A program made the translations under genes and the position numbers. From a virus: 30,904 nucleotides of DNA. Positions 17,546 through 30,801 of this stretch are shown here, piece after piece (position 1 is the stretch's first letter; every line of letters begins with the position of its first letter). The notes beneath the pieces were generated by a model. It was not told where the DNA came from. It did no database searches and saw nothing but the letters and a program-made list of their open reading frames with translations. The stretch covers positions 1 through 30,904 of the IMG/VR virus record IMGVR_UViG_3300012926_000014, one strand, 5' to 3'.

Positions 17546-18022
17546 TTAGCCGAAGATTTCGGCGGCCAGGTCCTCTGGGTCCGGCAGCGGCAGGCCGGAC
17601 TGCTGCGGAGTCAAAGCGACGACGGTGATTTCGGCGCGCGGATTGCGGTAGTCAATCGCATGGAAGATATGTTTTTCTCTCACCTGACGATCATTGCGTA
17701 TCACACCGGCCTGCAGCAGCACACGCGGGCCCTTGGCGCTGAGCCGATGGAAGCGATCCTGCAGGCAGTCGAGGATGATCGATTCGTCCAGATCCGGCAG
17801 CTCGCTCGCGTACCAGATCCGGATCGTCACGGCGACCGGTCCTTCGAGGCGTTGGCGTGCGGCAGCCGGAATCTGATGCAGGGCGTCGCGTTCGTAGGCG
17901 AGTGCTTCCTTCGATTTTACGACGGCCACGCGCTGATCCTCGTCGCCGCGATTCAGCGTAACAATGCGCCGGCGGTTCGCCTTGCTGCACGGCTGGCCGC
18001 GGATGGTGAAGGAAATCACCAT
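17546..18022 (-). CDS. rusA: RusA-type Holliday junction resolvase
   Basis: 158 residues from ATG 18022, chosen because family members begin with a short strand ending in the G-x-P-x-x-K-x-R motif, here ISFTIRGQPCSKANRRR. RusA resolves four-way junctions in recombination and replication intermediates. The catalytic acidic residues appear as PDLDE (Asp77, Asp79) with further Asp in ILDCLQD, and the later AGVIRNDRQV segment carries Asp111, matching the D-D-x-x-V motif region of the family with one Asp replaced by Asn. The start overlaps the previous gene by 7 bases. The family is common in phage replication modules. Confidence 0.83.
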   Translation of the reverse strand: MVISFTIRGQPCSKANRRRIVTLNRGDEDQRVAVVKSKEALAYERDALHQIPAAARQRLEGPVAVTIRIWYASELPDLDESIILDCLQDRFHRLSAKGPRVLLQAGVIRNDRQVREKHIFHAIDYRNPRAEITVVALTPQQSGLPLPDPEDLAAEIFG

Positions 18023-18561
18023 GATCCTTCGGCCTGGATCGCCTCGCGCTCGAGCTGGGCCTCGGCGTCTGGGGGTGTCCATTCAGACGGCTTGCCCGCC
18101 CGCTCCCACGCCAGTTTCGCATTCACGATCTGCGCATATTCAAGCGATTCGCCGAGGCGCCAGCGGCCGATGATCCTGTGCCACCAATCGTCCGGATCTT
18201 CCGGGCCTGCGCCATGCAGAATGCGCGCGATCTTGTCGAGGTTGGCGCGGGCAATGCGGCTGCTGGCATCGGACATGATGCGCTTAACGCCGGCGCTGTA
18301 GGCGTCGCGTTCGGCTGCGGCGTGATGCTCGATACGATCCGACAGGCGCCCAGCAAGAATGCCGCGAATCTCGGCGGGTGCCGGCATTTTCGGTTTCGTG
18401 CGCAGCCAAATATCGAGCGCATCGACGACGTATGGCATTGCGAAATCGCTGAGCGCTGCCAGCCAAGCCTTCAGGCCGGCCTCGCCAGGGGCTTTGGAAC
18501 CGACGGCATCGGCGAGTTCGGATAAGCGCGCGCGCAGTGTCGGCAAGTCGGAAGGATTCAC
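18016..18561 (-). CDS. Putative replication accessory (helicase-loader-like) protein
   Basis: 181 residues, GTG start overlapping the upstream stop as GTGA. The first half is helical, with PYVVDALDIWLRTKPKMPAP and AEIRGILAGRL; the W-x(7)-K-M-P-x-P-x-E-I-R pattern is typical of phage replication proteins that partner a DUF1376-type initiator or act as helicase loaders. The C-terminal half has DDWWHRIIGRWRLGESLEYA. Its location between the DUF1376 gene and rusA supports a replication role. Not a confident family assignment; a hypothetical replication-associated protein is the cautious label. Confidence 0.65.
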   Translation of the reverse strand: MNPSDLPTLRARLSELADAVGSKAPGEAGLKAWLAALSDFAMPYVVDALDIWLRTKPKMPAPAEIRGILAGRLSDRIEHHAAAERDAYSAGVKRIMSDASSRIARANLDKIARILHGAGPEDPDDWWHRIIGRWRLGESLEYAQIVNAKLAWERAGKPSEWTPPDAEAQLEREAIQAEGSW

Positions 18562-19265
18562 GATTTTCCTTTGAAACGTGGATCATTTTCCATCGAAGCG
18601 ATCAGCGCCGCATCGGCGTCCATGCCGCGGTTCGGATTGTCGCGCCGGATCCAGTTGCGCCAAGTGGCGAACCAATCGAGCTTAGTTCCTTTCGCGCCAG
18701 GGATCGCGATCCAGTAGTCGCGGAATCGCTGGAATGCCTGCGAAGCCGAAACGCCCGGGAAGTCCTCGGCGGCCCAAGCCGCCCAGCTCGCCGGTAGGGA
18801 TTTCAACGTCATGCGGGAGGCCTTTGCGTACCGACTCCCTTGACCTTTCTCTTGAATTTCTGGTGGTGAGTGTGGGGGTGGGGGTAGAGGCTCTTGCTCA
18901 GCATTTGCCTGAAACATGTCTCGCGTCAATAACTTAGCCTTCGCGTCATACCCTTTTCGACCTGCGCTGGACCGTTTCGAGCTGAGCGCGTCCGCACGCT
19001 CAATTTCCAATTGAATCCGACGGTTATAGTGCCCGTCGTCCATTCTTGTGAAAAACTCGGCGAGGATGTGCCGCACCGCGCCCATTTCCTCGTTCGACCG
19101 GGCGTTACAAATACCAAAAACGCGGCGTTCGTCCAGCGGCAGCGGTCCGCGCAAATCCCAGCAATGCGCCAGCATCAGCATGTAGGCGCCGTGCTCCATC
19201 ATCGACAAATGTTGCGTGTCGCGGCGATAGTCGCCGGTGTAGAACGGCATGAACGCGAAGCTCAC
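18558..19265 (-). CDS. DUF1376 phage replication protein
   Basis: 235 residues from GTG 19265, which overlaps the HNH stop as GTGA; ATG 19250 is an alternative only five codons later. The N-terminus FMPFYTGDYRRDTQHLSMME then HGAYMLMLAHCWDLRGPLP is the DUF1376 signature (M-P-x-x-x-G-D-Y-x-x-D-T-x-H-L). DUF1376 proteins resemble the winged-helix N-terminal domain of phage replisome organisers. A Pro/Glu/Gln-rich linker (PLPPPPHSPPEIQEK) separates it from a C-terminal part with WFATWRNWIRRDNPN, as in replication initiators. Likely binds the phage replication origin. Confidence 0.82.
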   Translation of the reverse strand: MSFAFMPFYTGDYRRDTQHLSMMEHGAYMLMLAHCWDLRGPLPLDERRVFGICNARSNEEMGAVRHILAEFFTRMDDGHYNRRIQLEIERADALSSKRSSAGRKGYDAKAKLLTRDMFQANAEQEPLPPPPHSPPEIQEKGQGSRYAKASRMTLKSLPASWAAWAAEDFPGVSASQAFQRFRDYWIAIPGAKGTKLDWFATWRNWIRRDNPNRGMDADAALIASMENDPRFKGKS

Positions 19266-19762
19266 GATGCCGACCGCTCGAGCGCTTCTTCTAACCAATG
19301 AGCCAAAACTGACGCTCCAACGGATTGCGGATCGTTCATGCGCGGGCGTCCTTTGCCGGCAGTGAATCCGCAGATGAACCAGGAGCTGTCTTCCGCATAT
19401 TCCGATATGCGGCGGGCCAAATCAACGCACCTGTCCTCTGAGCTTGGCGAGCTTGACGCGCAGTAGCCCAGCACTAGCAGCGCCAGATGAACGCGCGTCA
19501 CGTCGTTGAGGTCGGCGTGCCCGATGACCTCGCGGATAATTTGGTCAATTTCATGCCGGTCAGCGTGACAGCCTTCACACAGCGCGATCAGTTCATTGTC
19601 CTCATATTCCCACGGCTCGGCAGCGCGTCGATAGCATTTATGGTGAACGTGAAGAATCACATCCTCTATATCGCATTCTTCGCAACGAGAGTTGGCGCGA
19701 GCAAGGATTTCCCGCCGCCGCCGCTGCCAGCGAGGATCGCGCAGCTTCTCGGCGTAGGTCAT
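19262..19762 (-). CDS. HNH-family endonuclease-like protein
   Basis: 166 residues from ATG 19762. Residues 1-70 form an HNH/zinc fold: LRDPRWQRRRREILARANSR leads into C27-E-E-C30, then LHVHHKCY with the general-base His region, Asn57 in EDNELIALCEGCH, and a second C62-x2-C65-H66 knuckle. This arrangement is typical of phage HNH enzymes found in replication or packaging modules. The C-terminal 95 residues are helical and not recognisable. Both ends overlap neighbours by 4 bases. It may act as a homing or packaging nuclease or as a replication accessory. Confidence 0.75.
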   Translation of the reverse strand: MTYAEKLRDPRWQRRRREILARANSRCEECDIEDVILHVHHKCYRRAAEPWEYEDNELIALCEGCHADRHEIDQIIREVIGHADLNDVTRVHLALLVLGYCASSSPSSEDRCVDLARRISEYAEDSSWFICGFTAGKGRPRMNDPQSVGASVLAHWLEEALERSAS

Positions 19763-19947
19763 GAGATGCCCGGCCGACGGGCTATTTCGACGCTGGCGAG
19801 GTCCCGCTCGGCCGGCGTTGCTTCCGGATGGTGCGCGTCCCAATTGCGCTTGGCGAGCTCGTACACCTGCCAGCGCCTCTGCCGCTGAGCGACGCGGGAG
19901 CGGAAAGTGAAAGTGCGCAGGCTTGGCAGCGAGATATACGACGGCAT
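19759..19947 (-). CDS. Small basic protein upstream of HNH gene
   Basis: 62 residues with ribosome binding site TAGGAG before ATG 19947. The sequence is Arg-rich in the middle (FTFRSRVAQRQRRWQVYELA) with a helical C-terminus containing TPAERDLASVEIARR. The stop overlaps the HNH start as ATGA. Function unknown; DNA binding is possible from its basic charge. Confidence 0.65.
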   Translation of the reverse strand: MPSYISLPSLRTFTFRSRVAQRQRRWQVYELAKRNWDAHHPEATPAERDLASVEIARRPGIS

Positions 19948-19957
19948 TCGACGACTC

Positions 19958-20086
19958 CTACAAGTCGAATCGAGAAGCGGGCTGCGTGATGGTGTAGGCC
20001 ACCACGCCGCGGCAGCGGCCGAAGTCGCATCCGCACCCGCGCGCGAATTGTCCGGTTTTTATACGCCGGCCGGAAGAAGGCGCCAA
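19958..20086 (-). CDS. Possible small Cys-rich protein
   Basis: A 42-residue frame from TTG 20086 ends 10 bases before the next ATG, and its stop TAG forms part of the next gene's ribosome binding site region. It contains GCGCDFGRCRGVVAYTITQP, with three Cys that could form a small zinc knuckle. No ATG or strong ribosome binding site is present, so this may be incidental; the protein-like C-terminus is what makes it worth listing. Confidence 0.35.
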   Translation of the reverse strand: MAPSSGRRIKTGQFARGCGCDFGRCRGVVAYTITQPASRFDL

Positions 20087-20129
20087 CGAAGACTTACGCG
20101 GCCCTCATTTTTTAGGGGATAGCGGGGGC

Positions 20130-20363
20130 TTACTGTTTCCTGACGGCGCGGATCTTGACGGCCCTCAGCTCATAGCCGAAGTATTCGAGCAGTGTGGCCG
20201 CAGTCTCGACCGATAGGCGCGGCGTACCGTGCCGCTGAAGCCTGGACAGCGTAGCGATGTCCACTCCGGTCGCGTTCCGGATCGCGGAAAGCGTCGTATC
20301 TTTGCGATCTGCCAAATTGGCCCGGACTTGTTCTATAATCGGATGGTTCATGTTTGTTGACAT
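20130..20363 (-). CDS. Cro/CI-like helix-turn-helix regulator
   Basis: 77 residues from ATG 20363, or 73 from ATG 20351; neither has a good ribosome binding site. Residues about 23-60 form an XRE-type helix-turn-helix: TTLSAIRNATGVDIATLSRL, then QRHGTPRLSVETAATLLEYF. The C-terminus is basic and there is no dimerisation or protease domain, so the protein has the size of a Cro-type repressor. It is the first leftward gene and sits at the divergent control region, facing a rightward operon, the expected place for a lytic/lysogenic switch protein. Confidence 0.8.
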   Translation of the reverse strand: MSTNMNHPIIEQVRANLADRKDTTLSAIRNATGVDIATLSRLQRHGTPRLSVETAATLLEYFGYELRAVKIRAVRKQ

Positions 20364-20384
20364 CTGCCAAAACAAGCGTATTGT
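20357..20384 (+). promoter_or_regulatory. Rightward early promoter (candidate)
   Basis: TTGACA at 20357-20362 is a perfect sigma70 -35 box. TATTGT at 20379-20384, 16 bases later, matches the -10 consensus at 4 of 6 positions. The first rightward gene starts at 20424, giving a leader of about 35 bases. The -35 box lies inside the first codons of the leftward HTH gene, so rightward initiation and leftward regulator synthesis would interfere. Confidence 0.55.
20372..20384. promoter_or_regulatory. Candidate repressor operator (ACAA-N5-TTGT palindrome)
   Basis: ACAAGCGTATTGT is an inverted repeat with perfect 4-base arms and a 5-base centre, overlapping the -10 region of the rightward promoter. 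A further TTGT at 20354-20357 may be half of a second site. Small HTH repressors of phages typically bind such sites. Proposed from symmetry and location next to the HTH gene. Confidence 0.45.
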
Positions 20385-20408
20385 CCGCTCTATCGAATCT
20401 AAACGCAA
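20380..20408 (-). promoter_or_regulatory. Weak candidate leftward promoter for the HTH gene
   Basis: On the leftward strand TTGCGT (20408-20403) and GACAAT (20385-20380) are 17 bases apart. The matches are only 3 of 6 and 4 of 6, but the -10 box overlaps the same palindrome as the rightward -10 box, which would let one repressor control both directions. Low confidence. Confidence 0.28.
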
Positions 20409-20423
20409 GCAGGAGTCCCGCCC

Positions 20424-20594
20424 ATGAAACCGATCGAACGCCTCTGGAACCTCCCCGGCCTCGCCGCCTGGTCCGATGTCGCCTATCTCGCGATGATGCT
20501 GATGACGACCGGATCGGTTCTCGAAGCGGCGACGTATCTGCGCAGCCTCGGGGCGCCGCTGAGCATCGCGCGAGCGATTTTGCTGGGAGTGTGA
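20424..20594 (+). CDS. First gene of the rightward operon, small hydrophobic-helix protein
   Basis: 56 residues with ribosome binding site AGGAG, 8 bases before ATG 20424. The sequence MKPIERLWNLPGLAAWSDVA is followed by a moderately hydrophobic helix (YLAMMLMTTGSVLEAATYLR). The helix is too polar to be a certain membrane span. As the first gene after the switch promoter it would be expressed earliest; such genes often encode host-takeover or regulatory peptides. No family is recognised. Confidence 0.62.
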   Translation: MKPIERLWNLPGLAAWSDVAYLAMMLMTTGSVLEAATYLRSLGAPLSIARAILLGV

Positions 20595-20597
20595 GTG

Positions 20598-20888
20598 ATG
20601 CATACGCCCGGACCGTGGGAAGCAAAGCGTCTTGACTCGCATCATTCCCATATTCAATCTGAGAATGGTCTGATTGCCAGAACGGCGTTAGGAATCGATC
20701 AACCTCCGGAAGCGCTCCACGCCAATGCCCGCCTGATCGCCGCCGCGCCGGATATGCTGGAGGCGCTCGAAGAAGCGCGGATCGCACTGAAACATTGCGT
20801 CGAGTGCATGGAGCTTAATAGTCTTCCGGAAAGCGCGTTTCGCACAGTCCGCGCCGCAATCGCCAAAGCCACGGGAGCAGTCGCATGA
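20598..20888 (+). CDS. Phage protein with HTPGPW / NARLIAAAPDMLEAL signature
   Basis: 96 residues from ATG 20598 (a GTG one codon upstream is possible). It starts MHTPGPWEAKR and contains ANARLIAAAPDMLEALEEAR, the two hallmarks of a very common family of small phage and prophage early proteins of unknown function. The C-terminal part is an amphipathic helix with a Cys-x2-Cys (KHCVECMELN). The stop overlaps the next start as ATGA. Family recognised from memory, function unknown. Confidence 0.75.
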   Translation: MHTPGPWEAKRLDSHHSHIQSENGLIARTALGIDQPPEALHANARLIAAAPDMLEALEEARIALKHCVECMELNSLPESAFRTVRAAIAKATGAVA

Positions 20889-21313
20889 CAGACGCCGAAA
20901 ACGACCGCCCCGCGTGGGGCAAACGCGATCCGCTGGAGGTGGAAGCCAAGATGGACTCTTTCGATTCCGAGCGCTTGATCCTGGATGGTTCCACGCATAT
21001 ATGGGACGGCGAGCGATATCGCGCGAATGTTCGCGCAGTCGGCGACGATCAAGTCCTCGTTACGGTCACCATGCTCGCCGACGATGGCACCGATCTTGAC
21101 GCATCCTCTCATCTTGAGAGCCGCACGGACGATCGGCAGTCAGCCATCCATGACACCGTCTGGCATCTGATCTGCGAGCTCGGCGCGATCTGGCGCGGCC
21201 ACAAGGAGCATGAAGCGCGGCGCGAGTACATGGGCGGCAAGTGCATCGATCTGGAGACGGGGCGGCGGTTCAGCGATTTGGATTACGACACTGACTTCGA
21301 CTGCCGTCGATAA
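20885..21313 (+). CDS. Acidic phage protein of unknown function
   Basis: 142 residues, strongly acidic, starting MTDAENDRPAWGKRDPLEVE. It holds a predicted beta strand pair around RYRANVRAVGDDQVLVTVTM and a helix IHDTVWHLICELGAIWRGHK, and ends with LETGRRFSDLDYDTDFDCRR. Acidic early phage proteins may act as DNA mimics or inhibitors of host enzymes, but there is no specific support here. Coupled to the previous gene by a 4-base overlap. Confidence 0.68.
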   Translation: MTDAENDRPAWGKRDPLEVEAKMDSFDSERLILDGSTHIWDGERYRANVRAVGDDQVLVTVTMLADDGTDLDASSHLESRTDDRQSAIHDTVWHLICELGAIWRGHKEHEARREYMGGKCIDLETGRRFSDLDYDTDFDCRR

Positions 21314-21322
21314 AGAGCAGCG

Positions 21323-21454
21323 GTGCATACACGATCGCACCATCGCGGAAGGCCACTCGGCGTCCTGTACCTGCAGTCGCGACTGAAAGCAGCTCAGGAG
21401 AGATTCGTGACAGCGAAGAAAATGGTTCGTGTGACAGCCGGAGAGACGGCATGA
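21323..21454 (+). CDS. Small ORF with an internal strong start
   Basis: A frame from GTG 21323 encodes 43 residues with LQSRLKAAQERFVTAKKMVR, ending at a TGA that overlaps the next ATG as ATGA. The better start signal is internal: CAGGAG precedes GTG 21407 and would give only 15 residues (MTAKKMVRVTAGETA). The stretch is the only non-coding candidate between the neighbours, so one of the two frames is probably translated, at least to couple to the next gene. Confidence 0.4.
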   Translation: MHTRSHHRGRPLGVLYLQSRLKAAQERFVTAKKMVRVTAGETA

Positions 21455-21576
21455 CTCCCTCCATGCTCGACCTCCAGGAATCCGCCCATCGCTGGGACTA
21501 CTGGATCGCTGCGGCGATGATTGCGGCTCTGGCGTGTCTTGCGGTCGACGCAGCGGTCAACTTTGCGGGGTGGTGA
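21451..21576 (+). CDS. Small single-span membrane protein before queD
   Basis: 41 residues: MTPSMLDLQESAHRWDYWI followed by a hydrophobic helix AAAMIAALACLAVDAAVNFA and a short end GW. The Ala-rich helix could be a membrane span. The start overlaps the upstream stop as ATGA and the stop overlaps the queD start as TGATG, so it is embedded in the translated chain. Function unknown. Confidence 0.52.
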   Translation: MTPSMLDLQESAHRWDYWIAAAMIAALACLAVDAAVNFAGW

Positions 21577-21932
21577 TGACCTATTCAATCTGTCGCACCT
21601 ATCGCTTCGAGGCATCGCATCAGTTGCCGCTGCTTCCGGCCGATCACAAGTGCTTCAGATTGCACGGGCATAACTATCGCGTCGAAGTGGAAATCGACGG
21701 ACAGTTGACCGCTGGCATGATCCTTGAATTTAGCTTGCTTGACGCATACATGGCAATGGCGGTGCTTGATCGACTTGATCACCATCATTTGAACGACATT
21801 GTGCCAAACCCGACCGCCGAGAATTTGTCTTTTCATATTTACGAACGCCTCGCGCTATCGGCTTTCGGAGAAAGGATCAGACGCGTCCGCGTGTACGAAA
21901 ACGATGATTCATGGGCGGAATTTAAATGCTAG
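21576..21932 (+). CDS. queD: QueD, 6-carboxy-tetrahydropterin synthase
   Basis: 118 residues from ATG 21576, coupled to the preceding stop. QueD converts dihydroneopterin triphosphate to 6-carboxy-5,6,7,8-tetrahydropterin, the first committed step toward 7-deazaguanines (preQ0). All family features are present: zinc ligands His15 (FEASHQL), His30 and His32 (LHGHNY), catalytic Cys26 (DHKCFRLHGH), the LDHHHLND motif at 67-74, PTAENLS at 79-85 and Glu108 (RVYEN). The size is that of bacterial QueD. The next gene is DpdA-like, suggesting that the product feeds deazaguanine insertion into phage DNA; queC, queE and folE are not in this window and may be supplied by the host. Confidence 0.92.
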   Translation: MTYSICRTYRFEASHQLPLLPADHKCFRLHGHNYRVEVEIDGQLTAGMILEFSLLDAYMAMAVLDRLDHHHLNDIVPNPTAENLSFHIYERLALSAFGERIRRVRVYENDDSWAEFKC

Positions 21933-22522
21933 TACTGCTCGATACAAGCGAGGATCTTGCCGTTTGCGCTAGCGAGCTCGGGTGCGACGTCGGGCAATTA
22001 TTGACGCCGCTTACACGCTTCACCCTTCAGTACCCGGCGATGCCGTGGGCGATTGACAATGGCGCCTTCGCTGGCTTCGAAGAAAAGTCTTTCCTCTCGC
22101 TGCTTCAGCGCGAAGAACATCACAAGGTTCGTTGCCTATTCGTCGCAGCTCCAGATGTAGTCGGTTCTGCTAGGCGGACCCTCGAATGTTTCGAGGGTTG
22201 GCGCGGAAGGCTTGCGACGTGGCCGACTGCGCTCGTTATCCAAGACGGGCAGCAAGATTTGCCTATCCCTTGGAACGATATCGCTGCGGTCTTCATAGGC
22301 GGTACGACGCAATTCAAGATTTCCGATCACGCGAGCCACTGCATCAAGGCTGCAAAGATTCTCGGCAAATGGGCGCATGTCGGACGCGTGAATGATCCGG
22401 CCCGCTTCGAACATTTCGAGGAACTAGGCGCCGACAGCATCGACGGGACGGGCCTCTCGCGCTACAGCCACATGCGAGAAGCGATCAGCAAACGGGACGC
22501 GCAACAAAGGATCTTCGAGTGA
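21926..22522 (+). CDS. DpdA-like deazaguanine DNA transglycosylase (TGT-related)
   Basis: 198 residues, overlapping queD by 7 bases. Motifs in order: WAIDNGAF (41-48), APDVVG (75-80), ALVIQDGQ (102-109), FIGGTTQFK (123-131), HVGRVN (151-156) and GADSIDGT (168-175). This series is what I know from short phage proteins annotated as DpdA-family, distant relatives of tRNA-guanine transglycosylase that exchange guanine for preQ0-type bases in DNA. Asp residues in DNGAF and PDVVG are plausible active-site positions. It is about half the length of bacterial TGT, so it is a minimal barrel. The queD neighbour strongly supports a deazaguanine role. The assignment is from motif memory and context. Confidence 0.75.
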   Translation: MLVLLDTSEDLAVCASELGCDVGQLLTPLTRFTLQYPAMPWAIDNGAFAGFEEKSFLSLLQREEHHKVRCLFVAAPDVVGSARRTLECFEGWRGRLATWPTALVIQDGQQDLPIPWNDIAAVFIGGTTQFKISDHASHCIKAAKILGKWAHVGRVNDPARFEHFEELGADSIDGTGLSRYSHMREAISKRDAQQRIFE

Positions 22523-22683
22523 ATATCGATCAAGCCAAAGCCTACCTCGCCCATAGCTGGGTGCTGCATCCGGACTATCGGCCGGAGTCCAATCCACAGC
22601 ATTCGTGTTATGAGCCAGTCAATGTGAGGTTAACCTTTGCACACGTTAAACATGAGGGAGCCAAGCGTGAAAATAACTCTTGA
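22519..22683 (+). CDS. Small hydrophilic protein
   Basis: 54 residues from GTG 22519, which overlaps the DpdA-like stop as GTGA. Sequence: VNIDQAKAYLAHSWVLHPDY, then RPESNPQHSCYEPVNVRLTF. The K-A-Y-L-A-x-S-W-V-L-H-P-x-Y-R pattern looks like a real small early-phage protein. It overlaps the next gene by 17 bases. Function unknown. Confidence 0.6.
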   Translation: MNIDQAKAYLAHSWVLHPDYRPESNPQHSCYEPVNVRLTFAHVKHEGAKRENNS

Positions 22684-22915
22684 GAGCACAACGAAAATCG
22701 TTGACCTTTTCATCGACGGTGCGAAAGTGCCAGCGCGCATTTGGGAGGGCGTCACTGAAACCGGAACGCCGGTCCACGCTTTCATCACGCGCATTGCTCC
22801 GACGATTCCGTTGCCTCTGTCGGATCAAGTCGAAAAAGAGTTCGGACTCCAGTTGCAGGAATGCCGACCGCCGAGCGCTGTTATCGAAGCGATCCCGTTG
22901 AGGCTGATTCTGTGA
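22667..22915 (+). CDS. Small phage protein with VKITLESTTKIV signature
   Basis: 82 residues from GTG 22667, preceded by GAGGGAG as ribosome binding site; an ATG four codons earlier is possible. VKITLESTTKIVDLFIDGAK then ARIWEGVTETGTPVHAFITR is a recurrent family of short phage proteins of unknown function, with a beta-rich N-terminus. The C-terminal half includes DQVEKEFGLQLQE. No enzyme motif. Confidence 0.7.
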   Translation: MKITLESTTKIVDLFIDGAKVPARIWEGVTETGTPVHAFITRIAPTIPLPLSDQVEKEFGLQLQECRPPSAVIEAIPLRLIL

Positions 22916-22944
22916 AGCACGAGCAGGCGAAGGGGCGGGCGTGA
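22912..22944 (+). CDS. 10-codon mini-ORF between two coupled genes
   Basis: GTG 22912 overlaps the previous stop as GTGA; the frame encodes VKHEQAKGRA and its TGA overlaps the next GTG as GTGA. It contains AAGGGGCGG, the likely ribosome binding site of the next gene. It may simply bridge ribosomes across the gap. Confidence 0.3.
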   Translation: MKHEQAKGRA

Positions 22945-23144
22945 GCGCGACTGGATTATTTAAAGTGACGTTCTTCGATCCAGAAGAGAGCGGCATCGGC
23001 ACCGAAACGCACAATGTTCTCGCCGAGGACGGCGAAAGAGCAATCGCCAAGGCAAGGGCGATGCTGTTTCAGTCGCCGGATAAAGGTGCCGACCAAATCC
23101 CTTGGAAATTGTGCGGATTGAGCGTGATCGGCTGGGAAGACTGA
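22941..23144 (+). CDS. Small phage protein of unknown function
   Basis: 67 residues from GTG 22941 with AAGGGGCGG upstream. The sequence MSATGLFKVTFFDPEESGIG (first residue from GTG) is followed by ETHNVLAEDGERAIAKARAM, giving a strand-turn-helix unit, and ends WKLCGLSVIGWED. The pattern resembles small alpha/beta phage proteins of about 70 residues. Function unknown. Confidence 0.62.
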   Translation: MSATGLFKVTFFDPEESGIGTETHNVLAEDGERAIAKARAMLFQSPDKGADQIPWKLCGLSVIGWED

Positions 23145-23149
23145 TCGAT

Positions 23150-23518
23150 ATGTGGTCCCACCTCCCCATTGACGAGATGACCTATCGCTGGCACTGGATC
23201 GGCGCCGGCCCGATTAGTACGGCCGTGATCCGTGCCATCAATGAGGACGCAGGGCAATACTGGTACGTCGGCGTCCGCAAGGGATGCGCTCACGGCACAC
23301 ACGTCGATTTCGCGCAGTGCATCGACAAATTCGACGCTCTGATCTTCCGCCGTCTCGCCCGAGGCCTACCCTCGATCCTGGCCGGCATGACGATGGTCGA
23401 GCGGGAGGATGGAACGCTGAAGCCGATGCTGATCAGCGATCCGGCTTGGTACGAGGATCGGCGAAAGGGAGTGCGGAGGGGCGCAGAGTTTCGCAGAGAT
23501 GTGAGGATGCCAGCGTGA
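23150..23518 (+). CDS. Phage protein of unknown function
   Basis: 122 residues from ATG 23150; upstream codons in the same frame only shadow the previous gene. Contains WHWIGAGPISTAVIRAINED, YWYVGVRKGCAHGTHVDFAQ and a basic C-terminus RRKGVRRGAEFRRDVRMPA that might bind nucleic acid. No family motif recognised. The stop overlaps the next GTG start. Confidence 0.65.
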   Translation: MWSHLPIDEMTYRWHWIGAGPISTAVIRAINEDAGQYWYVGVRKGCAHGTHVDFAQCIDKFDALIFRRLARGLPSILAGMTMVEREDGTLKPMLISDPAWYEDRRKGVRRGAEFRRDVRMPA

Positions 23519-23760
23519 AGCCACGTGAGAAGAAGCCCGAGATTGTCTTTCGGATCATCGATCGTGAAACTGGACACGCAATCGGCTCGTACAGCAGAGC
23601 TTATTGCGATGAGTTCGATTTTTACAGTGTGGAAGAAGCCAGATCAGCCAATGTGCACGACATGTTTCAGGACACGGAGAAATATGCGATCGCAAAATAC
23701 CGGGTCAACTACGAACTGCTCGATCCGGATTGTTCGCCCCCGAGTTCGTCGAAGCCGTGA
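23515..23760 (+). CDS. Small phage protein of unknown function
   Basis: 81 residues from GTG 23515, overlapping the upstream stop as GTGA. It starts with a basic VKPREKKPEIVFRIIDRETG and continues with YSRAYCDEFDFYSVEEARSA and KYAIAKYRVNYELLDPDC, alternating strands and helices. Another long open frame through this region begins in the preceding gene and is a shadow upstream of this start. Function unknown. Confidence 0.62.
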   Translation: MKPREKKPEIVFRIIDRETGHAIGSYSRAYCDEFDFYSVEEARSANVHDMFQDTEKYAIAKYRVNYELLDPDCSPPSSSKP

Positions 23761-23770
23761 GGGAGTGCGA

Positions 23771-23923
23771 ATGACCGTCGCTGACCTGATCCGAGAATTG
23801 CAGTCCATGCCGCCGAATGCGGAAATTCGCATCTCGACGCTTCGTATCGTTCACTATGAAGAAGCACCGCCGCTCGCCTACGAAGTAAAGTACGAAGGCC
23901 AGTTCGTCGGGATTTACGCATGA
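23771..23923 (+). CDS. Small protein with MTVADLIRELQSMPPNAEI signature
   Basis: 50 residues from ATG 23771 with GAGGGAG as ribosome binding site. MTVADLIRELQSMPPNAEIR is the conserved start of a widespread family of short phage proteins (a helix then x-x-P-x-D/N-A-x-V/I), followed by strands HYEEAPPLAYEVKYEGQFVG. Function unknown. The stop overlaps the next ATG. Confidence 0.68.
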   Translation: MTVADLIRELQSMPPNAEIRISTLRIVHYEEAPPLAYEVKYEGQFVGIYA

Positions 23924-24213
23924 TCCCCCTCCCGCTCTCCGACCATCGCAAGGAAATCCACCGCGTCACGGTCAACGGCCGCGCGTGCGAGCGGATCAGC
24001 TTCGCGAATGGCGACGTCTTGTATTTCGCCCAGTCCGCCGACGTGCGCTTTCCGACGTTCCGGCTGGTGCCAAAAGCGCAGCATAAATTTCGCGCGGCGA
24101 TAGATAAAGCTATCGGTGTACCGATAGAGAAGTTCAAGCATTGCTCGGTATGCGGTTTGGGAGAAGGTGAATGGCGTGCATGCGAGGAACCTGATTGCGG
24201 AGAGCTCAAGTGA
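23920..24213 (+). CDS. Small Cys-rich protein
   Basis: 97 residues, ATGA overlap at the start. The N-terminal two thirds are beta-rich (RVTVNGRACERISFANGDVL). The C-terminus has C-S-V-C-G then R-A-C-E-E-P-D-C, four Cys that could form a zinc ribbon. Family not recognised. Confidence 0.65.
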   Translation: MIPLPLSDHRKEIHRVTVNGRACERISFANGDVLYFAQSADVRFPTFRLVPKAQHKFRAAIDKAIGVPIEKFKHCSVCGLGEGEWRACEEPDCGELK

Positions 24214-24455
24214 CAGAAATAGAAATCACTTCGCATGCACTGGCGGAATACATCGAATGGGTATACGCCAAGGAGCGCGTTCGCTTTCGCAATCGCGGAC
24301 TGCGTGGAGGCTACGGCACAAACATCTATCTTGAATTCGATCCGCTGGCAGCGACGTGCCTCGGCATGTTGATCCATAGCGTAGTAACTGGCCGCGTGCC
24401 GGTGCCACAGATCAAACTGAAGAAGATCGATGAGGCGATCAAGGGGATGACGTGA
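24210..24455 (+). CDS. Small protein of unknown function upstream of parB-like gene
   Basis: 81 residues from GTG 24210, overlapping the previous stop as GTGA. Contains ITSHALAEYIEWVYAKERVR and LEFDPLAATCLGMLIHSVVT, and a basic C-terminus QIKLKKIDEAIKGMT. It is joined by GTGA to the ParB-like gene, so it may be functionally linked to it. No motif recognised. Confidence 0.62.
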   Translation: MTEIEITSHALAEYIEWVYAKERVRFRNRGLRGGYGTNIYLEFDPLAATCLGMLIHSVVTGRVPVPQIKLKKIDEAIKGMT

Positions 24456-25135
24456 GTGATTCGATATTGGCTCAATTGGCGCATGCTTTTGAGCCTATCA
24501 AGGCGCTTCCGATCAATGATCGTATCGATGTACTAAACGCGATTCGCTTGGCTTTGCATCAGTTGAGTCCATTCGCCAATGAGCCGGTTGATTGCGTGCA
24601 GTGGGTGCGAGCCGAGCTCGTTCACGCGAATGATTACAACCCGAATAGCGTCGCTCCGCCCGAAATGGAATTATTGAGGCTTTCCATTCTAGCGGATGGC
24701 TACACGCAACCGATCGTGACGAACCCGGAAGGACCGCGCTTCGAAGTAATCGATGGATTCCACCGCAACCGCGTCGGCAAGGAATGCCTCGATATCCAAG
24801 CCCGCACGCTCGGTTATCTGCCGGTCGTCTTTATCAAGCAATCACAGACGGACCGCGGTGATCGTATCGCTTCGACCATTCGCCACAATCGCGCGCGCGG
24901 CAAGCATCGCGTCGATGCTATGTCTGAGATTGTGGTGGAACTCAAGCGCCGCAATTGGTCCGATGAAAAGATCGGCTCTCAGCTCGGCATGGATCCGGAC
25001 GAAGTGCTGCGACTAACACAAATCAGCGGGCTCGCGGAGATGTTCGCGGATCGAGATTTCAGCGAAGCGTGGTTGCCTGGCGTGATCACTGAAGAAGAAC
25101 TACAAGCGCTCGAGCTGGAGGAACCGAATGACTGA
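24452..25135 (+). CDS. ParB/IbrB-like nuclease-domain protein
   Basis: 227 residues from GTG 24452. A ParB/Srx-type domain covers about 50-150: DGYTQPIV (82-89, box I), VIDGFHRNRVGK (99-110) and STIRHNRARGKH (141-152, box II), the CTP- or nucleotide-binding signature. Residues 166-190 hold a helix-turn-helix (RRNWSDEKIGSQLGMDPDEV). The N-terminal 45 residues are an extra helix pair. IbrB of E. coli, which pairs with IbrA, has the same kind of domain. Here the next-but-one gene is an IbrA-like PP-loop protein, matching that pair. DNA binding is likely; the target is unknown, but a parS-like site lies at 10375. Confidence 0.83.
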   Translation: MSDSILAQLAHAFEPIKALPINDRIDVLNAIRLALHQLSPFANEPVDCVQWVRAELVHANDYNPNSVAPPEMELLRLSILADGYTQPIVTNPEGPRFEVIDGFHRNRVGKECLDIQARTLGYLPVVFIKQSQTDRGDRIASTIRHNRARGKHRVDAMSEIVVELKRRNWSDEKIGSQLGMDPDEVLRLTQISGLAEMFADRDFSEAWLPGVITEEELQALELEEPND

Positions 25136-25529
25136 GCGGCTGTACTTCCCATATCAGCAACTCGAGGAATATCAGCGCGGCATGTGGCGCATTGTGCGCG
25201 GAGAAGCGCGGCAGCGTTTCGCGGTTGCTGCGGCTGAGTTGATGCGCGACGCGGCGGCGTTCAAGGCGGCAATGTGCGAAGCGATCGATACGTGGCCGAT
25301 TTCCTGTTCGCACAACCTGACCGCCGAGAATACGAATCGGATCGCTTGGCTCGGGCATGCCGGCTGCTGCATCCGCGTCGGCTCGTGCGAAGAGAACACG
25401 CGCATCGGCTGGCACATGCTATCGCCCGAGCATCAGGCCATAGCAAATCGCGTTGCGGCCGAAGTGCTCGAGGAATGGTCGGGGCGGCAGCGGCCCGATG
25501 CGGCGCAGCCGGATTTCTTTAATGCTTAA
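25128..25529 (+). CDS. Small protein between ParB-like and IbrA-like genes
   Basis: 133 residues, overlapping both neighbours by 8 bases. MTERLYFPYQQLEEYQRGMW at the start, then SCSHNLTAENTNRIAWLGHA and a Cys pair (GCCIRVGSC), ending QRPDAAQPDFFNA. I recall short proteins of this look near ParB/PAPS-reductase-like pairs in other phages, so it may be a third component of the same unit. No enzyme motif is visible. Confidence 0.72.
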   Translation: MTERLYFPYQQLEEYQRGMWRIVRGEARQRFAVAAAELMRDAAAFKAAMCEAIDTWPISCSHNLTAENTNRIAWLGHAGCCIRVGSCEENTRIGWHMLSPEHQAIANRVAAEVLEEWSGRQRPDAAQPDFFNA

Positions 25530-26748
25530 AGAGCCGGCCGGTATCGATGTGCTGACCGCCGCGCGCGAACGCATTACGCGCGTCTTCGATGATTTCGATC
25601 GCATTTATCTATCCTTCAGCGCCGGCAAGGATTCGACCGTGATGCTGCATCTGGTCGCCGACGAGGCGCGCAAACGCGGCCGCAAGTTCGGCGTCCTCCT
25701 CGTGGACCTCGAGGCGCAGTACCGCCTGACGATGGAACACGCTTACCGGTGCGTCGAGATGTACCAAGACTGCATCGAACTTCACTGGGTATGTCTGCCG
25801 ATCCATCTGCGCAATTCGGTCAGCGTTTATGAGCCGTTCTGGATGTGCTGGGATCCGGACTCTCGAGGCGCCTGGGTGCGCGAGCTGCCGCACTGGGCAA
25901 TCAGCAGCGAGACGTTCTTTCCGTTCTTTCATCGCGGCATGGAATTCGAAGAGTTCGTGCCAGAGTTCGGGCACTGGTATTCGCGCGGCGAGCCGACCGC
26001 CTGCTTTGTCGGCATTCGCTGCGATGAAAGCCTGAATCGCTTTCGCACCATCGTACAGAGCAAGAAGGCGACGCACGCTGGCCTGCGCTGGACCTCGTAC
26101 GTTATCGGCTCAGTCTTCAATGCCTATCCGATTTACGACTGGAAATCGGCGGACCTCTGGACCTATCACGCGCGCTTCAAGGACAAGCCGTACAACGAGC
26201 TGTACAACCTGATGTATCGCGCTGGCGTGCCGATGGGGCACATGCGGATCTGCCAGCCCTATGGCGACGATCAGCGCCGTGGTCTATGGCTCTTCCATCT
26301 GATCGAGCCGGAAACGTGGAGCCGCGTGGTCGCACGCGTGAACGGTGCGAATGGCGGCGCGCTCTATATGCAGGAGTGGGGCAACATCAACGGCTATCGC
26401 AACATCACGAAGCCGAAAGGGCACACGTGGTTGAGCTTTGCCAAGCTTCTGATTGGCTCAATGCCACCGAAGACGCGCACGCACTATATCAACAAGATCA
26501 CGCTGTTCGAGCGGTGGTGGAAAGAGCGCGGCTACGCGGACGGCATTCCGGACGAGGCCGCTTACGAAATGGAAGCCGCACGCCGAGCGCCGAGCTGGCG
26601 TCGTGTCTGCAAGTCCATCCTGCGCAATGACTACTGGTGCAAGGGACTCGGCTTCAGTCAACACAATTCGGAAGCGTACAAGAAGTACCTAGCGCTGATG
26701 GAAAAACGCAAGACGGCGTGGAGTGGTCAATATGAACTACTTTCATAG
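25522..26748 (+). CDS. IbrA-like PAPS-reductase-family PP-loop protein (DUF3440-type)
   Basis: 408 residues from ATG 25522; upstream codons in frame only shadow the preceding gene. The PP-loop SFSAGKDS at 31-38 binds ATP and places it in the PAPS reductase / adenine nucleotide alpha-hydrolase superfamily. The later segments DWKSADLWTYHARFKDKPYN and GVPMGHMRICQPYGDDQRRG, and the long C-terminal part with KGHTWLSFAKLLIG, match the DUF3440-containing IbrA family and not sulfate-assimilating CysH. IbrA/IbrB were described as regulators of prophage genes in E. coli; DndC, a related PP-loop protein, works in DNA phosphorothioation. The reaction here is unknown. Confidence 0.85.
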   Translation: MLKEPAGIDVLTAARERITRVFDDFDRIYLSFSAGKDSTVMLHLVADEARKRGRKFGVLLVDLEAQYRLTMEHAYRCVEMYQDCIELHWVCLPIHLRNSVSVYEPFWMCWDPDSRGAWVRELPHWAISSETFFPFFHRGMEFEEFVPEFGHWYSRGEPTACFVGIRCDESLNRFRTIVQSKKATHAGLRWTSYVIGSVFNAYPIYDWKSADLWTYHARFKDKPYNELYNLMYRAGVPMGHMRICQPYGDDQRRGLWLFHLIEPETWSRVVARVNGANGGALYMQEWGNINGYRNITKPKGHTWLSFAKLLIGSMPPKTRTHYINKITLFERWWKERGYADGIPDEAAYEMEAARRAPSWRRVCKSILRNDYWCKGLGFSQHNSEAYKKYLALMEKRKTAWSGQYELLS

Positions 26749-26757
26749 GTTGATTCA

Positions 26758-27630
26758 ATGAGCATCATTGCGGTCTGCCACCAGGGCGTGAACGTCTACG
26801 ACGATATGCCGATGAGCGATTACGTCGCTGACCCGGCGCCAGAGCCGAGCCTGAATTCATCCGCTGCGAAGGCTCTCGTGACGCAAAGCCCGCTGCATGC
26901 CTGGACCGCTCACCCGCGCCTGAACGAGAACTACCGCCCAAAGGAGAGCGAGACATTCGACATCGGCTCGGCCGCTCATGCGCTGTTTCTTCAGGGCGAG
27001 GATTTGATGGTCGAGTGCGCGTTCAACGACTGGCGCACGAACGCCGCGAAGGATGCGCGCGATGAGGCCCGCGTGGCCGGCAAGCTTCCGCTGTTATCGA
27101 AGCACGTCGAGTCGATTCGCAAGATGGCCTGGATTGCAAGGAAGGCGCTAGCTGATTCAGAACTCGGCGTCTCGATCGATGATTTCTACGTTGAGCGGAC
27201 CGTGATCTGGCAAGACGACGGCACGTGGAAACGCGCGCGCTTCGACATGCAGCACCGCACGCGCGCGGTAATTCTCGACTACAAGACCTCGGAATCGGCG
27301 GACCCGTTTTCGTTCCCGAGCCTGATCGTGAGCTATGGCTACGACATCCAAGCCGCCCACTATTCGGACGCCTACCATGCCATGCATCCGGATGTGCTCG
27401 CCGTCGATTTCATCTTCCTCGTGCAGGAGCACACGCCACCTTATGCGTGCAGCCTTGTGGGCGTGGACCCGATGCTGTTCGACCTGGGCGCGCAGAAGGT
27501 CGAGCTCGCTACGTCAATTTGGCGCGAATGTATGAAGTCGAATCGCTGGCCCGGCTATTCCAAGAATATCGCCTGGGCGAGTGCGCCAGCCTGGGCGCTG
27601 AGTCAATTCGAGCAGAGGAAGCAATCATGA
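26758..27630 (+). CDS. RecE-like exonuclease, PD-(D/E)XK fold
   Basis: 290 residues. The nuclease core has GSAAHALFL (70-78), KRARFDMQHRTRAVILDYKT with Asp163, Asp174 and Lys176 as the D-x(n)-D-x-K active site, and YGYDIQAAHYSDAY (193-206), the Q-x-x-x-Y motif of lambda-exonuclease/RecB-type enzymes. The N-terminal YDDMPMSDYVADPAPEPSLN (14-33) matches the start of phage exodeoxyribonuclease VIII-like proteins. It would resect double-strand ends 5' to 3' for annealing-based recombination. The following gene is a Sak4-like ATPase, a typical partner. The stop overlaps that start as ATGA. Confidence 0.85.
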   Translation: MSIIAVCHQGVNVYDDMPMSDYVADPAPEPSLNSSAAKALVTQSPLHAWTAHPRLNENYRPKESETFDIGSAAHALFLQGEDLMVECAFNDWRTNAAKDARDEARVAGKLPLLSKHVESIRKMAWIARKALADSELGVSIDDFYVERTVIWQDDGTWKRARFDMQHRTRAVILDYKTSESADPFSFPSLIVSYGYDIQAAHYSDAYHAMHPDVLAVDFIFLVQEHTPPYACSLVGVDPMLFDLGAQKVELATSIWRECMKSNRWPGYSKNIAWASAPAWALSQFEQRKQS

Positions 27631-28574
27631 GCATTTCATTCGGCCGAGCGGTCCGCAGCAACGTTAACCTGCTGATCGGTGTGGCGGGCGCAAGCGGATC
27701 TGGCAAAACCTTCTCCGCGCTGCGCATGGCATCCGGCATTTGCGAGGGCGAGCCGTTCGCGGTAATCGATACCGAACGCGGCCGGTCGAAGCACTACGCG
27801 GATCAATTCGCATTCGACGTGTACGACCTGGAAGCGCCGTTCAGTCCGGCCCGCTACCTCGAAGCGATCGAGGCCGCAGACAAGGCTGGCTACGGTTGCA
27901 TCGTGGTGGATTCGATGTCGCACTCGTGGGCGGGCGAAGGCGGATGCATGGACATGCAGGAAGCCGAGCTGGACAAGCTGGCGGGCAACGACTACGCCAA
28001 GCGCGATCGGGTGAAGCTGCTCTCATGGTCGAGGCCGAAACAGGAGCATAAGCGCATGGTCTACAGCCTTCTGCAAGTCAAGGCACACGTGATCCTGGCC
28101 TTCCGCGCGGAACCGAAGGTCGAGATTGCGAAGGAAGGCGACAAGACGGTGATCGTTCCGAAGAAGACTCTCACGTCAGTAGACGGATGGGTGCCGATCT
28201 GCGAGAAGTCGCTGCCGTTCGAATTGACGGCCTCGGCTCTGCTCATGCCGGATCATCCGGGCGTGCCGAAGTGGATCAAGCTGCAGGAGCAGCACCGCGT
28301 GATGTTCCCGCCCGGCGAAGTCCTCGACGAGTCCTCTGGCCGATCGATCGCGCAGTGGGCCAAAGGCGGAAAGGAAAAACCGGCCGAGCCGAAGTCCAAC
28401 GGTCACATCGTCGTGTCCGAGTGGGAGAAACTCTTGAAAGAAGCTCCCGACGCCAAGCAACTCGCCGCACTCTGGACCGACTGCCAGGCCGCTTGCCGAA
28501 AAGCGAACGATCCGAAGGCCCGCGCGCATCTGCTCGGGGTGAAGGATGCGAGGAAGCACGCGCTCGGACTATGA
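27627..28574 (+). CDS. Sak4-like RecA-fold ATPase (recombination)
   Basis: 315 residues from ATG 27627. Walker A is GASGSGKTFS (21-30), Walker B is CIVVDSMSH (91-99), and FAVIDTERGRSKHYAD gives the intervening D-T-E segment typical of the phage AAA-type NTP-binding family (PF13479) that includes Sak4 single-strand annealing proteins. LKSLLQV-like and VILAFRAEPKVEIA segments follow. The C-terminal 90 residues (KEKPAEPKSNGHIVVSEWEK) are a linker plus a helical domain. With the RecE-like nuclease just upstream, it forms a recombination module for repair and genome exchange. Confidence 0.84.
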   Translation: MSISFGRAVRSNVNLLIGVAGASGSGKTFSALRMASGICEGEPFAVIDTERGRSKHYADQFAFDVYDLEAPFSPARYLEAIEAADKAGYGCIVVDSMSHSWAGEGGCMDMQEAELDKLAGNDYAKRDRVKLLSWSRPKQEHKRMVYSLLQVKAHVILAFRAEPKVEIAKEGDKTVIVPKKTLTSVDGWVPICEKSLPFELTASALLMPDHPGVPKWIKLQEQHRVMFPPGEVLDESSGRSIAQWAKGGKEKPAEPKSNGHIVVSEWEKLLKEAPDAKQLAALWTDCQAACRKANDPKARAHLLGVKDARKHALGL

Positions 28575-28783
28575 CAATCGCACGTTCACGTACTCCGATG
28601 CCTAAAGGTCGCCATGATCGCCCATATCGGCCTTCGGTAGCGGCAGGCATAACGACGGCGACCGCCTACGTGCTTCCGTTTCCGATGCGAGCCGACTTCT
28701 TAGCGCAGATCATCATCCCGCGCGACATGACCAATGAGGAAGCCGACCGGCTATGCACGTTCATCAAGGTCTACGCGCGATGA
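28571..28783 (+). CDS. Small basic protein after recombination module
   Basis: 70 residues from ATG 28571, overlapping the Sak4-like stop as ATGA. N-terminus basic (MTIARSRTPMPKGRHDRPYR), then AYVLPFPMRADFLAQIIIPR and a helix MTNEEADRLCTFIKVYAR. The frame upstream of this ATG is a shadow of the ATPase gene. The D-M-T-x-x-E-A-D-R-L helix is common in short phage proteins; function unknown. Confidence 0.65.
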   Translation: MTIARSRTPMPKGRHDRPYRPSVAAGITTATAYVLPFPMRADFLAQIIIPRDMTNEEADRLCTFIKVYAR

Positions 28784-28827
28784 TCGCCCACCGGCTGCGC
28801 TGCCTTCACTGCGGGAGGAGACTGTGA
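28780..28827 (+). CDS. 15-codon mini-ORF with CxxC
   Basis: ATG 28780 overlaps the upstream stop as ATGA and encodes MIAHRLRCLHCGRRL; its TGA overlaps the next GTG as GTGA. The GGGAGGAG inside it is the ribosome binding site for the next gene. The C-x2-C and basic charge resemble half a zinc knuckle. It may be a coupling ORF or a real micro-peptide. Confidence 0.35.
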   Translation: MIAHRLRCLHCGRRL

Positions 28828-29315
28828 CGACGGATCTGCGAGAGTTGCTAAAGGAGGTGCGCGACGAATTAGACGCAACGCTGAATGTTCAAGCCAGCCC
28901 GGACTTGAAGCGGTTCATTGATCGCATCGACGCCGCGCTGTCCGAGCCCGCGCCGGAGCCGACGATCTATTTATGCCCAGCCGGATGCGGTTGCACTTGG
29001 CGACCGGCCGTCTACATGGAGGCCGTCAAGCAGGAAATGTTCGGCTTATTCGGTCCGAACAGTAAATCGTGCGAGGTGTGCGAGAGCTTGCCACTTGACA
29101 AGCTGATTCCGCTCTACGCCGCCCCACCCCCGGCCAGTCCGTTGGATGCGAGGGATGCGGCGAGGTTGGACTGGGCTGAGCATCACCCAGAAGCGTTTCA
29201 CACCGTGATGAACAGTTGGTGGGCAAACGCAGGGCGTGGTCACCGGGAGATTCAATTCAATTGGCGCGGCGCTATCGATGACGCCATCGAGCGGGAAGGA
29301 GGAGCCAATGGATAA
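28824..29315 (+). CDS. Early phage protein with Cys-rich centre
   Basis: 163 residues from GTG 28824 with GGGAGGAG upstream. The N-terminal helix TDLRELLKEVRDELDATLNV is followed by RFIDRIDAALSEPAPEPTIY, a Cys-rich stretch CPAGCGCTW and CEVCESL, then IPLYAAPPPASPLDARDAAR and WRGAIDDAIEREGG. The L-Y-A-A-P-P and D-A-A-R-L-D-W segments are recurrent in variable phage early proteins. The four Cys (C-x3-C-x-C ... C-x2-C) may bind zinc. Function unknown. Confidence 0.68.
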   Translation: MTTDLRELLKEVRDELDATLNVQASPDLKRFIDRIDAALSEPAPEPTIYLCPAGCGCTWRPAVYMEAVKQEMFGLFGPNSKSCEVCESLPLDKLIPLYAAPPPASPLDARDAARLDWAEHHPEAFHTVMNSWWANAGRGHREIQFNWRGAIDDAIEREGGANG

Positions 29316-29496
29316 GACTCTAACCGCTGACCCGTCGAAACCTGATTCGATCATCCTGTCGGTACGTCTGCGCTCCGGCAAGTTCGAGTCTTCAATCGAA
29401 GTGCCGATGTACTCCACGCCAGCGGAGATGCGCGAATTCGCGATGACTTGGCTACAGTTGATGGATCAGGGAATCAAACTGGGGCAGAAACCATGA
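29308..29496 (+). CDS. Small protein of unknown function
   Basis: 62 residues from ATG 29308 with a strong ribosome binding site (AAGGAGGAG). A beta N-terminus (DSIILSVRLRSGKFESSIEV) is followed by a helix TPAEMREFAMTWLQLMDQGI. Coupled at both ends by overlaps. No family is recognised. Confidence 0.65.
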   Translation: MDKTLTADPSKPDSIILSVRLRSGKFESSIEVPMYSTPAEMREFAMTWLQLMDQGIKLGQKP

Positions 29497-29801
29497 CCTC
29501 ACCGCCGGATGTGCAGAACGTGCCGGATGTTTGGGCCTTGCTTGAACGAGCGCGCAGTGCTGCTGTTGAGTTATGCGTAGCGGCCATGCCAACGTCACCT
29601 GACTGGCACAAGTGGTTCGAAGTCCGACAGGAGATTGACGTTGCCATCGCCCAGCGCGACCGATTCGTGCTGGTGCCGCTGGAGCCGACGCCAGAAATTG
29701 AACACGCTTGGTACAACGGGCCGACAAGCACGCACAACAGATTCCGGGAGCATTGGAGAAATGCACTCGCCGCGTCGCCGAAGCCGGAGGGGAAGCCATG
29801 A
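29493..29801 (+). CDS. Small early phage protein of unknown function
   Basis: 102 residues from ATG 29493, ATGA overlap with the previous stop. It contains VWALLERARSAAVELCVAAM, VAIAQRDRFVLVPLEPTPEI and EHWRNALAASPKPEGKP. The V-L-V-P-x-E-P-T-x-E-M/I motif is frequent in variable prophage early proteins, where it often joins interchangeable modules. Function unknown. Confidence 0.66.
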   Translation: MTSPPDVQNVPDVWALLERARSAAVELCVAAMPTSPDWHKWFEVRQEIDVAIAQRDRFVLVPLEPTPEIEHAWYNGPTSTHNRFREHWRNALAASPKPEGKP

Positions 29802-30436: not shown

Positions 30437-30726
30437 AACTATCCGAATTGAAGCCAACGCTATCCCCTTCAGGCGGTGAGTATCAAACGCTGAATTTCCT
30501 ATGCCCACTTTGTCGTTTGGGAACAGTCACAGTCGAAATCTGGTCGGGTAAGTCAGGCGATACACAACTAAGCGATGGAAAAATTCATCGCCTCTGGCAC
30601 GCCGAACAACACCCATACAGAGAATTAAACTGTCTGACCATAACACCGAGCATCAACTGCGACAATCAGCCACATCGAGGCTGTAAAGGTTGGCACGGAA
30701 CTATCACGAATGGAGAAGTGGTATGA
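30433..30726 (+). CDS. Cys/His-rich protein resembling DUF6527
   Basis: 97 residues, ATGA overlap with the previous gene. NFLCPLCRLG gives a C24-x2-C27 pair, LTITPSINCD is the conserved L-T-x-x-P-S-I segment, and CKGWHGTITNGEVV ends the protein with Cys84 and His88 in C-x3-H-G-x-I-x-x-G. This order (Cys pair, T-P-S-I, final C-x-x-x-H and G-E/R-V) resembles DUF6527 family proteins, some of which occur in bacterial ubiquitin-like operons. The phage branch is short and its role unknown. Likely one zinc site from the Cys/His set. Confidence 0.68.
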   Translation: MKLSELKPTLSPSGGEYQTLNFLCPLCRLGTVTVEIWSGKSGDTQLSDGKIHRLWHAEQHPYRELNCLTITPSINCDNQPHRGCKGWHGTITNGEVV

Positions 30727-30779
30727 ATTTGTACCGGCACCGGTCCGCCCGATCCCGTGCCGAGGCAGTCGCAGCATAG
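30723..30779 (+). CDS. 18-codon mini-ORF before GG-leader gene
   Basis: ATG 30723 overlaps the previous stop as ATGA and encodes MNLYRHRSARSRAEAVAA, a basic then Ala-rich peptide, ending at TAG 30777. No independent ribosome binding site is seen. The next gene has its own good site, so this ORF may be incidental. Confidence 0.25.
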   Translation: MNLYRHRSARSRAEAVAA

Positions 30780-30801
30780 GGCGTCGAAGGAGAACCACAT
30801 C

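Follow-up and report, generated by a model that had tools for sequence, protein, structure and literature searches.

A compact DpdA-like protein family of phages and its swappable 7-deazaguanine supply genes

Canonical phage DpdA, of the type found in 9g, CAjan and Rosebush and represented here by phiG7_16 and Sonali gp87, is proven to insert preQ0 into DNA (PMC6884629). Among loci with canonical DpdA that were no shorter than 14 kb, drawn from the closest relatives of the phiG7 DpdA, the full FolE-QueD-QueE-QueC set was present in 50 of 50. DpdA-type genes that lack a full preQ0 pathway, with supply by the host presumed, have been described in Salmonella 7-11, Orion and Pantoea MED16 (PMC6884629, PMC8306585), and the DNA of MED16 contains low dADG (PMC8306585). 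Phages carrying the compact gene family described below resemble these singleton-DpdA phages in usually having no full preQ0 pathway; the 24 GenBank records that matched the family included no Salmonella or Pantoea phage and not Orion.

The window analysed here is the whole of a 30.9-kb viral record (IMGVR_UViG_3300012926_000014, positions 1 to 30,904), which may be an incomplete genome. It carries a pair of overlapping genes with the following features:

21576..21932, + strand: queD, encoding a 6-carboxytetrahydropterin synthase homologue of 118 aa, with matches in Pfam, PHROG, PDB and NCBIfam.
21926..22522, + strand: gene for a compact DpdA/TGT-like protein of 198 aa, PHROG 15826 family, assigned from AlphaFold2, Foldseek, hhalign and conserved residues.
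21926..21932, + strand: 7-base overlap of the queD stop and the short-gene start, read from the sequence, with the same order in the nearest relative, L001.

The overlap suggests that the two genes are translationally coupled; queD has a second possible in-frame start, a GTG at 21534. L001 keeps the overlapping gene order from queD to the short gene, with identities to the window of 83% for the short protein and 66% for QueD, and comparison of the short gene with that of L001 gave a dN of 0.12 and a dS of 1.8. Because the pair persists in L001 and dN of the short gene lies far below dS, these are functional genes and not debris: queD and the 198-aa open reading frame are both genuine, conserved genes that purifying selection maintains. 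QueD matched the Pfam PTPS family (PF01242) at 7.7e-28, above the gathering cut-off, PHROG 2389 ('QueD-like') at 3.6e-15, and the PDB chains 2OBA (2.5e-19) and E. coli QueD 4NTK (3.4e-17). The zinc-binding and catalytic motifs ASH, HKCFRLHGH, LDHHHLND and VYEND lie in register with solved PTPS/QueD chains and provide the zinc-binding His triad and the catalytic Cys, Asp-His and Glu. Against the NCBIfam QueD equivalog TIGR03367 it scored 81.7 bits, just under the cut-off of 89.25; it is a diverged phage copy, and its family match and its residues, not the equivalog score, are the grounds for calling it QueD. The initial annotation had described a QueD with all zinc and catalytic residues that overlaps a 198-residue reading frame bearing a series of DpdA-like motifs (from DNGAF to GADSIDGT); the residues align as described, the overlap and its coordinates are correct, and every quoted motif is present. 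It had also listed FolE, QueE and QueC as missing, and this held throughout the 30.9-kb record, possibly a fragment: neither QueC, FolE nor the preQ0 transporter family was found in it, and custom-built models of QueE and canonical DpdA gave no match.

The nearest isolated phages share only 30–38% portal identity with this phage. Three closer relatives with 75–83% portal identity (G002, G005 and G008) conserve the virion genes and lack the cassette, which therefore belongs to a variable early region. Most of the early half (17546-30904), including queD and the short gene, has no counterpart in these three relatives. Two further genes of this region were considered as cassette partners:

24452-25135: ParB-like gene, in the same early region as the cassette.
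25453-26748: PAPS-reductase/DUF3440 gene, following the ParB-like gene in the early region.

DpdB is a ParB relative, and PAPS-reductase-type proteins are PP-loop enzymes. The ParB-like gene was rejected as a partner for having no meaningful match to the ParB of Sonali, and the PAPS-reductase/DUF3440 gene because a PAPS-type gene stands directly beside the short gene in just 2 of the 79 representative loci surveyed below (L011, ReqiPine5, and L172, Caballeronia). Both were accordingly left as context; together (24452-26748) they form what we take to be an IbrB/IbrA-like arrangement.

The only PHROG matched by the 198-aa protein was PHROG 15826, labelled 'unknown function', and sequence look-ups in Pfam, NCBIfam and the PDB gave nothing useful, with no Pfam or PDB sequence match. 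Relatives were nevertheless widespread, so the reading frame is no accident of the sequence: tblastn found them in 24 GenBank phage records, from phages of Synechococcus, Escherichia, Vibrio, Arthrobacter, Rhodococcus, Mycobacterium and Erythrobacter, and profile scans found the family in more than 570 IMG/VR stretches and, among bacterial and archaeal genomes, in 36 stretches. Members are typically about 195 aa long, the relatives measuring about 190–215 aa with the full set of active-site residues. The window protein is thus two-thirds the length of canonical phage DpdA (~300 aa) and half that of TGT (375 aa), and we know of no smaller member of the TGT superfamily than PHROG 15826. A truncated DpdA was considered and rejected, since the relatives all share this size and have a complete active site; the short protein belongs to a compact family in its own right. 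Several actinophage proteins that carry the annotation 'DpdA-like tRNA-guanine transglycosylase' (those of Fishburnevirus, Sonali gp81 and Aoka gp40) are members of the PHROG 15826 family, with 35–36% identity to the window protein, and have so far been known by annotation name only. In the literature searched, we found no paper describing the compact family, its size class or its linkage to supply genes. In Escherichia phage phiG7 (L006:11932-12524) and in SHIN8 (L261:1432-2024), the short gene is divided between two overlapping frames. Both phages are Seuratvirus isolates, one from China and one from Japan, and both also encode canonical DpdA; the split may reflect either a programmed frameshift or shared decay.

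We next compared the compact family with canonical DpdA and TGT. Structure prediction, which the initial annotation had named as a check, gave a compact TIM barrel (AlphaFold2, pLDDT 95.1, pTM 0.91) with TGTs among the significant fold matches. They made up 14 of the 37 Foldseek matches to the PDB at E<=1e-3, the best match was thiazole synthase, and other TIM barrels were among the rest; in a viral structure library the matches included phage queuine tRNA-ribosyltransferases, and Bella96, Beppu virus and the canonical Sonali DpdA were among those matched. With TGT matches mixed among other TIM barrels, the fold alone is not decisive, and as judged from sequence profiles it is the match to canonical DpdA that decides the class. 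In hhalign, the profile of 77 short-family sequences matched the canonical phage DpdA profile at E 3.4e-6 with a probability of 88%; smaller short-family profiles reached only E 0.003–0.016, and the controls gave 0.09 or worse for column-shuffled profiles and 0.0026 for an unrelated transporter profile. The extended alignment placed D44, D77, G125-G126 and H151 opposite D63, D105, G153-G154 and H187, which are invariant in DpdA (phiG7 numbering), and D173 at or beside DpdA D206. Nine positions (P76, D77, Q106, F123, G125, G126, K131, H151 and D173) are identical in 77 of 77 relatives, and D44 is kept in 73 of the 77 sequences. Candidate catalytic residues are D44, D77, Q106, G125-G126, H151 and D173. 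Their order matches that of E. coli TGT, in which an acid/base Asp is followed by a base-binding Asp and Gln, the GG loop and the nucleophile Asp, roles that are established TGT biochemistry. With the profile match and the catalytic residues in register, the DpdA-like class proposed in the initial annotation stands; its description as a 'half-length DpdA' does not, the protein being two-thirds as long and belonging to a separate family. Along the TIM barrel, canonical DpdA and the short family both show the motifs D-x-G-A-F, D, GG, H and D in this order, and both are linked to preQ0 genes, but canonical DpdA is longer and pairwise sequence search does not detect it.

The recurrence of TGT among the fold matches raises the alternative of a deazaguanine transglycosylase that acts on tRNA, a phage substitute for TGT that would keep or alter a queuosine-type modification during infection. 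TGT (PF01702) has the same fold and the same order of active-site residues along the barrel; unlike the short family, it is ~375 aa long, possesses a zinc subdomain and is specific for tRNA. The short protein stops after the barrel, its family has no conserved Cys cluster corresponding to the C-terminal Cys3-His zinc site, and the lack of this region at half the length of TGT argues against a tRNA substrate. None of 12 short-family members matched Pfam TGT PF01702, and comparison of the short protein with a single TGT sequence was not significant; the family profile thus fits DpdA better than it fits that sequence, a comparison that is not like for like. Two features of the genomic context, the neighbouring genes and the host genomes described below, also bear on this alternative, which we consider unlikely.

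To survey the neighbours, 126 loci, a sample in which the highest-scoring matches of the window protein are over-represented, were clustered at 80% identity into 79 representatives, and pathway genes were sought within 600 bases of the short gene on the same strand. The commonest neighbours were a preQ0/queuosine-precursor transporter (Vut_1/TIGR00697), QueD, QueC and QueE, and when 105 neighbours were scanned independently against Pfam and NCBIfam, the top families were PTPS/QueD (12), the Vut_1 preQ0 transporter (8) and QueC (5). A 7-deazaguanine gene was present in 43 of the 79 representatives (32 of the 49 viral ones), adjacent or nearly so in 40 and within a canonical cluster in 3, and there was usually one kind of partner per locus. 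Outside the three canonical-cluster phages, the transporter, QueD, QueC and QueE adjoined the short gene in all but one case, and a rough binomial estimate for this adjacency gave P = 3e-30. Short-family loci thus usually have one supply gene or none, compared with the four-gene pathway of canonical-DpdA loci. The initial annotation had suggested that the phage may strengthen a single step and rely on its host for the others, and the single-partner pattern across dozens of relatives supports this. On a quick tree, made before the QueF-like gene described below became a label, the partner label (including 'none') changed 20 times, compared with 31.9 times for shuffled labels, and seven times among the partner-bearing rows alone; the changes are fewer than by shuffling, yet many, which indicates that partners are inherited for a while and swapped repeatedly. 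The main survey of phage deazaguanine systems found preQ0 transporters to be uncorrelated with any phage group (PMC6884629); that the transporter tracks the compact family bears on this open point of the survey (PMC6884629).

Canonical DpdA and the short gene occur together in phages phiG7, Sonali and R29Z and in locus L223, so the two enzymes may do different jobs, and they may differ in sequence specificity. In Synechococcus phage Ssp-JY42, Arthrobacter phage Aoka, Mycobacterium phage GreaseLightnin and Rhodococcus phage ReqiPine5, by contrast, no canonical DpdA was seen in the vicinity of the short gene. In L223 (8001-9490) the compact gene directly follows canonical DpdA, and the locus also holds FolE, QueC, QueD, QueE and a preQ0 transporter.

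A fifth kind of partner, absent from this window, is an 84-aa gene that always adjoins the short gene (L037:10600-10854, L020:10594-10839, L074:10588-10830 and six more loci). Its product gave no Pfam QueF match and belongs to PHROG 37496, of unknown function. Its best PDB profile match was the archaeosine synthase QueF-Like 5JYX (E 0.0023), and a confident structural model had QueF-Like proteins as all of its top four Foldseek matches (TM 0.83). It shares with QueF-Like archaeosine synthase (5JYX/5K0P) the fold, the catalytic Cys-Asp spacing and the Glu residues, and differs in its length of 84 aa, in being phage-encoded and in having 20% identity. On profile and model evidence we recognise it here for the first time as a QueF-like phage protein. 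QueF-L acts after base insertion, as established for tRNA.

These partners bear on whether the gene pair works together at all. It could be that QueD serves auxiliary pterin or queuosine metabolism and is functionally unrelated to the barrel, which would do another job, for example as a hydrolase. TIM barrels are diverse in function, and no supply gene could be recognised close to the short gene in 36 of the 79 representatives. This seems very improbable, however, given that the overlapping pair persists in L001, that five different deazaguanine families repeatedly adjoin the short gene and are almost never found elsewhere in the loci, and that partners were repeatedly swapped on the tree.

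Several loci also place the short gene near DNA methylases and replication genes; in Seuratvirus it lies between the sliding clamp and DNA polymerase, and in R29Z beside polymerase genes. All the helper genes would suit tRNA modification equally well, but the DNA methylase and replication-gene neighbours, the Seuratvirus position included, speak against a tRNA target. The same holds for four host genomes that carry the short gene with a transporter (L149, L150, L153 and L173), in which neither TGT nor a full-length QueC was found: the imported base would there be without another known user, which argues against simple feeding of host tRNA modification. In an actinobacterial clade, mostly Nonomuraea, QueC, TGT and the transporter were all undetected in the genomes; its members are L154, L160, L165, L166, L170 and L171, and several of them lie near DNA methylase-like genes. 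At a second site in the genome of Cellulomonas sp. KH9 (L144; G028:C2:306113-312071), a stretch of 6 kb holds a complete QueC together with a further transporter and a weak match to TGT.

Taken together, we consider it probable that the compact DpdA-type enzyme swaps guanine for preQ0 in phage DNA and that QueD lifts the supply from the host pathway. We infer preQ0 as the substrate, DNA as the target, protection as the benefit and the roles of the individual residues. PreQ0 is the likeliest substrate because it is the common denominator of the preQ0 makers, the importer and the preQ0-consuming QueF-like enzyme, and DNA the likeliest target because of the homology to DpdA, the missing tRNA-type zinc region and the DNA methylase and polymerase-gene neighbours. 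The two genes would form a small DNA-modification cassette, and the reaction would most likely be the base exchange of TGT and DpdA: D173 would attack C1' of a guanine deoxynucleotide, guanine would leave, and its place would be taken by a 7-deazaguanine, in all likelihood preQ0. D44 would act as the acid/base, while D77, Q106 and G125-G126 would hold the base. On the supply side, QueD would raise the flow from dihydroneopterin triphosphate towards preQ0, and the host would provide FolE, QueE and QueC; the modification would protect the DNA from the restriction enzymes of the host. Each phage would bring whichever supply step helps in its host, which in this window would be QueD. Counting against this reading are the 36 representatives that have no supply gene nearby, the actinobacterial clade described above, the many enzymes that TIM barrels match, with thiazole synthase as the best PDB hit, the hhalign value of 0.0026 for the unrelated transporter profile, the three phages that have canonical DpdA as well as the short gene, and Mycobacterium phage Orion, which has DpdA only and whose DNA is without deazaguanine (PMC6884629).

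The swap might instead take place at the nucleotide level, on dGMP, dGTP or a deoxynucleoside, with a polymerase incorporating the resulting 7-deaza-dGTP derivatives. Such a route through the polymerase has been put forward for phages of Campylobacter (PMC6884629), the short gene adjoins polymerase genes in Seuratvirus and R29Z, and the protein is a minimal barrel with no obvious nucleic-acid-binding addition and no basic bias (pI 5.6 in the window). The pI of canonical DpdA, however, is similarly low in three of four cases, known TGT and DpdA homologues work on polynucleotides, and the QueF-like partner resembles an enzyme that acts after insertion, all of which makes this route improbable.

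What is new here is the compact family with its swappable partners, more than this one phage. The evidence leans towards PHROG 15826 being a separate class of minimal DNA deazaguanine transglycosylase, a plug-in that comes with one gene that the host lacks or that is limiting there (QueD, QueC, QueE, the preQ0 importer or the mini QueF-like enzyme, the last of which would finish the modification by turning preQ0 into an archaeosine-like base). If so, 7-deazaguanine DNA modification would be far commoner in phages than counts of canonical DpdA suggest, and a family that Pfam lacks and to which PHROGs assigns no function would be a class of DNA-modifying enzyme present in hundreds of phages. It would offer a compact catalyst of ~195 aa for putting 7-deazaguanines into DNA, and the neighbouring gene would predict the precursor or the final base used by each phage.
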